Source of the DNA: a virus | Reading direction: 5' to 3' (one strand) | IMG/VR virus record: IMGVR_UViG_3300033550_000003 | Location: 1-63,604 of that record | Length of the DNA: 63,604 bases | Shown: positions 9,874 to 34,382 of the stretch, one piece after another | Layout of the letters: every line of letters begins with the position of its first letter | Position numbering within the stretch: the stretch's first letter is position 1 | Program-made: the position numbers and the translations under genes | Notes under the pieces: generated by a model | The model's database searches: none | What the model was told of the DNA's origin: nothing | Seen by the model: the letters and a program-made list of their open reading frames with translations, nothing else

Positions 9874-9948
9874 TCTCCCATGGTCTGCTGGCATGGCCAC
9901 CCGGACTTTGAATCCGTGGTTTCGTAGGTTCGATTCCTGCTGGGAGAG
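9874..9948 (+). tRNA. tRNA-Gln (anticodon TTG)
   Basis: The acceptor stem TCTCCCA / TGGGAGA is perfect. The T-arm is GTAGG-TTCGATT-CCTGC. The anticodon loop CTTTGAA (9906-9912) carries TTG, with a stem of four clear pairs. The D-arm is irregular and has a weak first anticodon pair. CCA is not encoded. It reads CAA codons, which are rare in GC-rich hosts but more used by this phage. Confidence 0.85.
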
Positions 9949-32458: not shown

Positions 32459-32629
32459 TTACAAGACAGACTGATACTTAACTAGTCTGACGTTCTTTGC
32501 GCCTTCTTCTTCCAGAATTCTCTTTTCAAGATTAGCTTGATCTCTTGGGAAAAGTTCTCTGGTTTCCTTTTTCACTCCATCGATCTCATAGCTGAGATAA
32601 AAGAAGTAATTAGTTTCTTCGAACATCAT
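32459..32629 (-). CDS. Hypothetical protein, 56 aa
   Basis: ATG at 32629 overlaps the upstream stop (ATGA). The product begins MMFEETNYFFYLSYEIDG and has a charged helical middle. No family recognised. Confidence 0.55.
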   Translation of the reverse strand: MMFEETNYFFYLSYEIDGVKKETRELFPRDQANLEKRILEEEGAKNVRLVKYQSVL

Positions 32630-32859
32630 CTTTCCTTTCCGTCGTAAATTCCAAAATGACCGAATAGTCTTTCGATGTATCTTTGAGGATTCTCACAAGA
32701 TTCATGAGTAACCTTCTTCATGCTTTGATAGTAACGAACTCTTTCGCCCTTTTCAAGCATTACTTCACAATCTGCACATTTAATTAGATGAGTATTGGAT
32801 TCTAGAATTCTGTATGAATTTCCATGTGAATCCTTGTAGAACTTTCTTGTTCTTTTCAT
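32626..32859 (-). CDS. Small zinc-binding protein, 77 aa
   Basis: ATG at 32859 with AAGG six bases upstream (ATG at 32865 also possible). CADCEVML near residue 33 plus H and C further on (THESCENPQRY) suggest a CxxC...HxxxC zinc site. Basic N-terminus (MKRTRKFYKD). First gene of the unit after the structured leader. Confidence 0.55.
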   Translation of the reverse strand: MKRTRKFYKDSHGNSYRILESNTHLIKCADCEVMLEKGERVRYYQSMKKVTHESCENPQRYIERLFGHFGIYDGKER

Positions 32860-33204
32860 TTTCATCCTTTTCAAATAATTTAATCCCCCCCCAGCGTGCC
32901 TAGAGTGAGGGCGTATGCCTAAAATCACTCGCTGTTGAGTCTACTTCACTGCCACGACAAGGGCCTCACAGTCACACGCGCCTTGTCCTCTGGTGCTAGT
33001 CCTTACTAGCTTCTTCTTTGATTTCCTGGCTTATGTGAGAGTTTGGAAGAAGAACGGGTCAAGAAAACCATTCGACTAAACGGACAGTGACACGCCTAGA
33101 AGTTACTCTCACCACAGCCCTTAGTGAAGCGGATGGCCCCCGCGCTTTCCTCTTGTCGTCCATGTGGCTAGGGTCCTATTATTTCAAGGAAGAAGAACTC
33201 TGGG

Positions 33205-33324
33205 CAAAGAAAAAGACCCAGGAGGCTAGGCCCCTCCTGGGTCGTGATAGTTAAACTATCGCCACGCTGGGCCTAGCAGCATGTTGTACAACAACAACAT
33301 ACCACACGGTGCAGCGTGAGTCAA
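33205..33324 (-). ncRNA. Possible 85-nt leftward sRNA or attenuated leader
   Basis: Minus-strand TTGACT (33324-33319), 17 bases, TATGTT (33301-33296), then an 11-bp terminator hairpin GACCCAGGAGG / CCTCCTGGGTC followed by TTTTTCTTTG (33214-33205). The early part of the RNA (CTAGGCCC) is complementary to the terminator loop. Confidence 0.55.
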
Positions 33325-33335
33325 AATTACGTCAG

Positions 33336-33365
33336 TTGAACCATAGCTCAACCAACTGATACAAT
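33336..33365 (+). promoter_or_regulatory. Rightward promoter of the GT4 gene
   Basis: TTGAAC (33336-33341), 18 bases, TACAAT (33360-33365), then a short CACGG / CCGTG hairpin and AAAAGGAG before ATG at 33411. Confidence 0.7.
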
Positions 33366-33410
33366 AGTATCACGGACAAGAAGCCGTGTCAAACATTGAA
33401 AAGGAGTCCT

Positions 33411-34382
33411 ATGGACATCTCTTTTGGAACCGTTCCGGGCAACCTTAACACAACCATTGGCTATGGTGTTGCCGGATTCAATATGGTTCGTAGTCTACAG
33501 AAACTTGGGCATCGAGTGCCCTTCCAGGACAAGAATTGTCCTATTGAAATCTTCTTCTCTCAGCCAAATTTCTGGGAGTGGTCTAACCAACTTGGCTACC
33601 ATATCGGATATACACCATGGGAGTCAACCCAATTGCCACCGGGCTGGCTAGAGAACATGAATGCTGTGGATGAAGTATGGACAACCAGTGAAATTATTCG
33701 TAGATGGTACACAGCGGCTGGTGTCAAGAATGTAAAGGTCTATGCTCATGGAATTGATCCAGAGTGGACACCTCATAAGCGTATCGTACACAACGATAAG
33801 ATCAAATTCCTTCACATGGGTGAGCCTGCTCCTCGAAAGGGTGGACAAATGACTGTCAATGCTTTCAGAGCAGCATTTGGTGGACGTAAGGATGTTCATC
33901 TAACGATCAAGGCTCATGGATACAACACTACTCGTATTTATCAGGGTCAACACATTATTGGTGCGGTGGACGATATGCCCAACATCTCCCTTGTAACAAC
34001 TGAGCTACCTCAAGATCGTCTTGTTGGTTTCGTTAAGCAGCATCACGTAATGGTATATCCATCATGGGGAGAAGGATTCGGTCTCATCCCTTTCCAGGCA
34101 ATAGCCACAGGAATGCCTACGATCTGCACAGAAAAATGGGCACATTACGCTGACTATCTGGGACCTCTGGGCCTTGATTCAAAGCTAGCGGACTCACCAT
34201 GGCCCGGCATGCATCCAGGAAAGATGCTCGAACCAAGCTTTGACGATCTTGTTGATAAGTTCCGATATGCAGCAGATAATTTTTCTGATTTGAGTGATCA
34301 ATTCTACGCTCAGGCACCGAAACTTCACGTTGAGTACAACTGGGAGAAGCTTACCGAAGAGGCTTTCGCACACTTGATTTAG
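33411..34382 (+). CDS. GT4-like glycosyltransferase
   Basis: 323 residues from ATG at 33411 after AAAAGGAGTCCT. NLNTTIGYGVAGFNMVRSLQ at the start, FLHMGEPAPRKGGQMTV near 140-156 and PSWGEGFGLIPFQAIATGMP near 221-240 (the E-x7-E region of GT-B enzymes) identify family 4. It probably uses a nucleotide sugar. Together with the leftward GT2, GT25 and cytidylyltransferase genes it suggests a glycosylation system; target unknown. Confidence 0.83.
   Translation: MDISFGTVPGNLNTTIGYGVAGFNMVRSLQKLGHRVPFQDKNCPIEIFFSQPNFWEWSNQLGYHIGYTPWESTQLPPGWLENMNAVDEVWTTSEIIRRWYTAAGVKNVKVYAHGIDPEWTPHKRIVHNDKIKFLHMGEPAPRKGGQMTVNAFRAAFGGRKDVHLTIKAHGYNTTRIYQGQHIIGAVDDMPNISLVTTELPQDRLVGFVKQHHVMVYPSWGEGFGLIPFQAIATGMPTICTEKWAHYADYLGPLGLDSKLADSPWPGMHPGKMLEPSFDDLVDKFRYAADNFSDLSDQFYAQAPKLHVEYNWEKLTEEAFAHLI

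Follow-up and report, generated by a model that had tools for sequence, protein, structure and literature searches.

The noncoding interval at 32860-33410 of a Streptomyces phage genome carries a two-part RNA element on its minus strand: a short unit with predicted promoters and a kissing terminator (module B), followed by a separate structured RNA of about 310 nt (module A). Comparison of relatives shows on which strand the element lies, how both modules fold, that the two loops are complementary and in what order the parts follow. The order promoter, kissing terminator, structured RNA and operon is common to phages and to Mulchroom-like satellites. Module A represents a new structured RNA family outside Rfam, is present in four of five such satellites, and has been exchanged between satellites and phages by recombination.

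The window analysed is the whole record IMGVR_UViG_3300033550_000003 (63,604 nt), a Streptomyces phage with 99.4% identity to phage Mandalore over 20 kb and about 90% identity to Coruscant (Coruscantvirus, Stanwilliamsviridae). The interval lies between divergent operons (Table 1), the rightward one holding glycosyltransferase and ribonucleotide reductase genes, and the leftward one, after its small first ORF, a transglycosylase, an HNH endonuclease, tRNA-Thr and others. A distant DNA search matched 51 Streptomyces phage records to the interval, whole or in part. Its identity to Mandalore is 85.6% vs 99.4% for the surrounding 20 kb; by this comparison it has diverged faster than its surroundings. 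The loop pairs differ (CTAGGCC in the window at 33225-33276, CTGCACC in Mandalore, each self-complementary), as do the P4 helices, and either fast compensated change or allele replacement would account for these differences.

A first-pass annotation, made from the window, had noted perfect stems in the interval and a loop CTAGGCC (33225-33231) with a complement GGGCCTAG (33269-33276) about 40 nt away. All are present, and each of the two sites falls in a 7-nt hairpin loop on the minus strand. Its proposal of a large structured noncoding RNA agrees with the strong covariation reported below, but must be divided into two units, the terminator with its kissing module and the separate large RNA, both on the minus strand. 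It had also pointed to a nearby tRNA; a tRNA-Thr gene exists, but it belongs to the downstream operon at a distance of 1.9 kb and carries little weight. ARAGORN and Rfam place tRNAs in the window at 9874 and 30992 only and none in the element, which by this test is neither tRNA nor tmRNA. The most telling feature, sharing with satellites, is not visible from the window alone.

Table 1. Features of the interval and its borders, numbered on the window
Feature	Position	Strand	Details
Flanking start codons	32859; 33411		Leftward ORF ATG at 32859; rightward glycosyltransferase ATG at 33411; the interval sits between
Small ORF, first of leftward operon	32626-32859	-	Protein without family
Module A, type-1 structured RNA	32885-33197	-	About 310 nt; from comparison of relatives
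P1 closing P2 hairpin	33147-33197	-	P1 33192-33197 with 33147-33152; P2 33174-33190, loop UGAAAUAA
P3 hairpin and pseudoknot PK1	33115-33143	-	Loop GGCC 33135-33138 with GGCU 33116-33119
P4 domain	33035-33112	-	P4 33105-33112 with 33035-33042; P5 hairpin 33076-33099; P4b hairpin
P6 hairpin	32995-33010	-	Two-sided change in 5/6 pairs
P7 hairpin	32956-32987	-	Nearly invariant 18-nt loop (YGCGUGUGACUGYGAGGC); two-sided change in 7/7 pairs
P8 hairpin and P9	32893-32934	-	P8 32903-32930; P9 32931-32934 with 32893-32896
G8 tract	32885-32892	-	3′ end of module A, then AT-rich DNA
Module B	33206-33392	-	Predicted promoters, hairpin(s), intrinsic terminator hairpin
Distal leftward promoter (predicted)	33364-33392	-	TTGACA-N17-TACTAT, TG-extended
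Candidate rightward promoter	33336-33365	+	TTGAAC-N18-TACAAT, glycosyltransferase operon; overlaps distal leftward promoter
Proximal leftward promoter (predicted)	33296-33324	-	TTGACT-N17-TATGTT, TG-extended
Module B 5′ hairpin	33266-33280	-	Core of 7-bp stem; 7-nt loop CUAGGCC (33270-33276)
Module B middle hairpin	33246-33260	-	Variable; absent in Mandalore
Module B intrinsic terminator	33206-33243	-	11-bp stem, 7-nt loop GGCCUAG, U-run

Module B has the layout of an intrinsic terminator or attenuator: a GC-rich hairpin and U-run with a promoter upstream and an operon beyond. The position and spacing of the distal promoter (TTGACA-N17-TACGAT or TACTAT) are constant in all phages compared. The proximal promoter has a satellite counterpart, TTGACA-N18-TATACT, with homologous sites in relatives recognised by eye, and the candidate rightward promoter reads TTGAGC-N18-TATAAT in relatives. 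The terminator loop GGCCUAG is complementary to the 5′ hairpin loop CUAGGCC. Of 27 homologous regions, 25 have a terminator loop able to pair with RNA upstream over 7-11 nt, while a match of at least 7 nt was found for 3% of shuffled upstream sequences. The two exceptions are L021, where the match is 6 nt, and L025, missed by the script but seen by eye (GGGCTAG/CTAGCCC). At least 19 different loop pairs occur among the 27 relatives, so the pairing is conserved and the sequence free; compensatory change thus preserves the kissing complementarity that had been proposed. The hairpins abut in the window, and Mandalore has a linker of about 6 nt. On this geometry an intramolecular coaxial kiss of 7 bp seems strained, and pairing between module B molecules is possible. 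We had considered cross-pairing of helper and satellite loops and rejected it because the loops differ by inspection (Mulchroom GACCCAA; the MulchMansion-type Angela GTGGCACC). The annotated tRNA-Arg of EGole (NC_055791 19296-19390, minus; L027:597-691), which ARAGORN reports too, occupies the position of the module B small RNA; the call is probably a mis-annotation or spurious match.

Module A was aligned in 15 type-1 elements from phages and satellites, and L032 and L017 were added afterwards. The covariance model R1 matches the window at 32955-33112 with an E value of 3.8e-47, the window sequence itself being in the model. In the core (P4, P5, P4b, P6 and P7; 14 distinct sequences), 99.3% of cells are standard pairs and two-sided compensatory change is seen in 24 of 31 base pairs; each measure is reached by at most 1 of 500 shuffles, and no slid register comes near. 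Two-sided change affects 6/8 pairs in P4, 4/6 in P5 and 2/4 in P4b, whose hairpin has a conserved loop, CUUCUUGACCCGUUCUUC. P7 reads GACAAGG/CCUUGUC in the window, UUCAAGG/CCUUGAA in StarPlatinum, GCAAAGG/CCUUUGC in Mulchroom and GGAUGCA/UGCAUCC in L032. Across P1, P2, P3 and PK1, which form the 5′ domain, pairing holds in 97.2% of cells, and two-sided change affects 10 of the 18 pairs (5/6 in P1 and 3/4 in P2, both 100% paired). On four of five measures for this domain no shuffle out of 500 equals the observed value; on the fifth, further pair types, that value is unexceptional. P8 covaries in all, and P9 is nearly invariant and unformed in the three satellites compared. All type-1 elements have a tract of G7-12 and an AT-rich flank. 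A lack of compensatory changes in relatives, which the first-pass annotation would have counted against an RNA, is thus the opposite of what we find.

Folding energy carries a different signal. On either strand the whole interval (z -4.46 and -4.08) folds better than each of 100 shuffles that preserve dinucleotides, but the effect stems from the right-hand part, 33206-33290 (z -4.4). The left part alone (about 310-316 nt) is no better than shuffles at z +0.43, so its structure is shown by comparison of relatives only, and minimum free energy was dropped as support for module A. A search with Rfam 15 families (GOLLD, ROOL, HEARO, OLE and others), which had been suggested at first pass, gave no match to the element at gathering score, and the hits below it, with E up to 5, score low and look like chance; the likeness to GOLLD or ROOL that had been raised finds no similarity behind it, and for HOLDH, named with them, the absence of a match counts as far as Rfam 15 includes a model of it. 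A second conserved motif, TTCTTGACCCGTTCTTCY, was rejected as a search probe, its new matches falling only in unrelated contigs. The records of Jay2Jay, Warpy and Targaryen annotate a 54-aa 'hypothetical protein' inside module A (L005:1470-1634, L014:270-434 and L017:270-434) that is probably spurious.

The strand follows from the wobble pairs. Read on the minus strand, P1, PK1 and P5 contain 12, 16 and 7 G-U cells (35) and 1, 1 and 0 A-C cells (2). The five core helices contain 8 G-U cells, which the plus strand would make A-C mismatches. A plus-strand RNA, first assumed from the alignment, is ruled out by these counts; the RNA is therefore the minus strand, and its G-tract lies at the 3′ end, towards the leftward gene. 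The gap from the terminator U-run to P1 is about 10 nt, and no conserved promoter lies between modules B and A in the phages compared; a weak candidate, TTGCCC-AATAAT at 33207-33178, was rejected because its spacing is not kept. Module A would therefore arise most simply from read-through of the module B terminator.

The element is also found in satellites. Mulchroom (OQ784832) is a satellite of the helper MulchMansion (deCarvalho et al. 2023, PMC10690885), and the passages of that paper on Mulchroom-type satellites describe them as lacking primase or replicase genes. In Mulchroom the element sits between Lsr2-like and endonuclease VII genes, and four of five Mulchroom-like satellites have module A in this position, namely Mulchroom and the IMG/VR satellite genomes L021, L025 and L032, all four of which have an integrase. 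The fifth, L033, has the module B promoter and kissing terminator and then different sequence. The segment concerned (L033:2050-2400) is a third kind, without Rfam match. These four relatives of Mulchroom from IMG/VR (L021, L025, L032 and L033) are 12-15 kb long and are not mentioned in the passages of PMC10690885 consulted, among which a keyword search found none on a shared RNA, origin or other element. A search with the whole Mulchroom genome found no nucleotide similarity to helper-type phages besides the element; when Mildred21 was compared at higher sensitivity, the one addition was a DUF2637 membrane gene (phrog_10376). In L025 the 5′ domain of the element shares 90% identity with phage L019 and about 42-52% with other satellites; for the remainder the figures are 96% with Mulchroom and 64% with L019; these mosaic identities indicate satellite/phage recombination inside the element. 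Neither RNA type was found in MiniFlayer, which has no annotated integrase. In GTDB genomes, searches for the satellite MCP and for the loop pattern found none.

Close relatives replace module A. In 62 records of the same genera (Coruscant, Sushi23, Daubenski, TomSawyer, Bordeaux, MindFlayer and others), module B is followed by a different RNA (type 2) of about 130-190 nt, which lacks the G-tract. Compensatory changes on its minus strand were seen by eye only (for example GGGUCCUAC/GUAGGACCC and GGGUCUUGC/GUAAGACCC). Model R1 gives one significant match per type-1 genome searched (Jay2Jay has a weak second candidate, E 0.014) and no significant match in the type-2 genomes searched. No ORF of at least 45 aa co-segregates with RNA type in 12 phage genomes (6 per type, three genera), the nearest to it being a spurious ORF inside the element; this suits an RNA acting on the host or on shared machinery. 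That close relatives have an unrelated structured RNA in this position, while no protein changes along with it, points to modular RNA control under diversifying pressure.

We tentatively favour, at a little under an even chance, a reading in which module B is an attenuator and module A a structured leader that together control the leftward operon in cis and were captured by satellites. Transcription of the minus strand would start at one or both HrdB/sigma70-like promoters and yield a small RNA of about 100-170 nt ending at the module B terminator. Read-through, at a level that module B may set, would add the structured RNA of about 310 nt, with its pseudoknot and 3′ G-tract, and then the operon. 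With loops of exactly 7 nt and hairpins too closely spaced to kiss readily in the same molecule, pairing between copies, and with it sensing of the element's own copy number, is plausible. Module A would act in cis on the transcribing polymerase or on the operon mRNA, and satellites that captured the element would have put their own lytic operon under the same control.

The model for such an action is the put RNA of phage HK022, a leader downstream of early promoters that acts on RNA polymerase and needs no phage protein (PMC9378689). The resemblance lies in a phage leader RNA with which, here, no protein co-segregates. Put RNA is about 70 nt with two stem-loops and occurs in two copies (putL and putR), whereas our element is about 310 nt with a pseudoknot, occurs once per genome and has a terminator upstream; neither its length nor its copy number is that of put RNA, though by analogy it may work like put RNA or like ColE1 RNA II. 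Against the attenuator and leader, few convincing same-strand terminators lie downstream in the window (one weak, 28332-28309) or in Mulchroom, so antitermination is not clearly needed; the first gene downstream is not the same in phages and satellites; and the leader gives the G-tract and AT-rich flank no obvious role.

Those two features are accommodated by the main rival, which we judge rather unlikely: that the locus is a phage replication origin of the RNA-primed (R-loop) type and the leftward transcript a structured pre-primer. A lasting RNA-DNA hybrid would form at the G8-12 tract and the AT-rich DNA after it; cleavage and extension would follow, tuned by the kissing small RNA. In ColE1, host RNA polymerase transcribes a structured primer from a host promoter, an R-loop forms without any replication protein, and RNA pairing exerts control (PMC5043065). 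Our element resembles RNA II/RNA I in its G-tract, its flank, present in all type-1 elements, and its complementary 7-nt loops; unlike ColE1, it has no antisense gene, both loops are on one RNA, and a replication start here is hypothetical. An origin would explain why satellites without primase or replicase genes (as the passages of PMC10690885 have it) carry the element, to be copied by the helper's replisome, and why Mulchroom and helper-type phages resemble each other in nucleotide sequence mainly here. No co-segregating initiator was seen among ORFs of at least 45 aa, which would fit a ColE1-like origin, though one common to both types may exist. However, MiniFlayer also lacks replication genes and yet has no element, and type-2 phages have no G-tract. 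The cumulative GC-skew minimum falls at the element in Mildred21 (L038, about 17 kb) and MindFlayer (L045, about 17.5 kb), which suits an origin but coincides with the switch in gene direction; being so confounded, skew was rejected as proof.

A doubtful reading gives the kissing loops the leading part. Module B would be a self-recognising copy-number sensor, whose terminated small RNA kisses its own copies or the nascent leader and so sets read-through into module A, which in turn primes replication or drives the operon. Divergence of the loops between helper and satellite would let either genome keep count of its own copies alone, in the manner of plasmid incompatibility groups, and satellites would retain module A so that the helper's machinery runs them.

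It is similarly improbable that module A or the terminated small RNA is a free trans-acting RNA, of which satellites carry their own copy, perhaps with kissing loops linking it into an oligomer as in phi29 pRNA or in the RNA-only ROOL and GOLLD assemblies. Large loops that barely vary (18 nt in P7, and that of P4b) suggest that module A has a binding partner, the two complementary 7-nt loops speak for intermolecular pairing, and ROOL and GOLLD assemblies are held by kissing loops (PMC12286853). But no separate promoter or terminator was found for module A, which sits in an operon leader, and there is no similarity to ROOL/GOLLD-type families. The element is like GOLLD, ROOL and OLE in being a large structured phage RNA with kissing loops; it differs in having no Rfam match, in being much shorter, in its place as an operon leader and in its range, here one phage subfamily and satellites.

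That the repeats act as DNA (a cruciform, protein-binding or recombination site), the RNA being incidental, we regard as very unlikely: divergent promoters meet inverted repeats here and phages and satellites exchange DNA inside the element, but DNA pairing does not predict the one-strand bias of 35 G-U against 2 A-C cells in P1, PK1 and P5, and the pseudoknot and long single-stranded loops are conserved. An ordinary intergenic region with promoters, one terminator and otherwise chance repeats, as the z of module A alone might suggest, is scarcely credible, having been refuted by covariation (reached by 0 or 1 of 500 shuffles for all pairing measures but one) and by conservation of the element in satellites.

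Helpers and satellites share replication or packaging sites in P2/P4, PICIs and PLE/ICP1. As in those systems, a satellite here carries a noncoding element of its helper. Two things set it apart: the element in common is a structured RNA, and, according to passages of PMC10690885, packaging genes are present in the satellite itself. That parasites share this RNA suggests a way in which satellites exploit or sense the helper, and a testable element common to helper-type phages and Mulchroom-type satellites bears on how satellites use a helper.

Phages and satellites have other small stretches in common. Genes of the DUF2637 family (phrog_10376) lie downstream of the element in both the phage (window 27404-28279, minus) and the satellite (L026:11331-12287), and by eye the C-terminal part of the protein may be a DNA-binding domain. 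MiniFlayer (L030:13818-14072) and MindFlayer (L050:12077-12330) share DNA under a small membrane-protein gene of MiniFlayer. Beyond the RNA, an identical 18-nt hairpin, CAATCTCGTTAGAGATTG, occurs in type-2 phages (L012:1720-1737) and in Mulchroom (L026:9842-9859).
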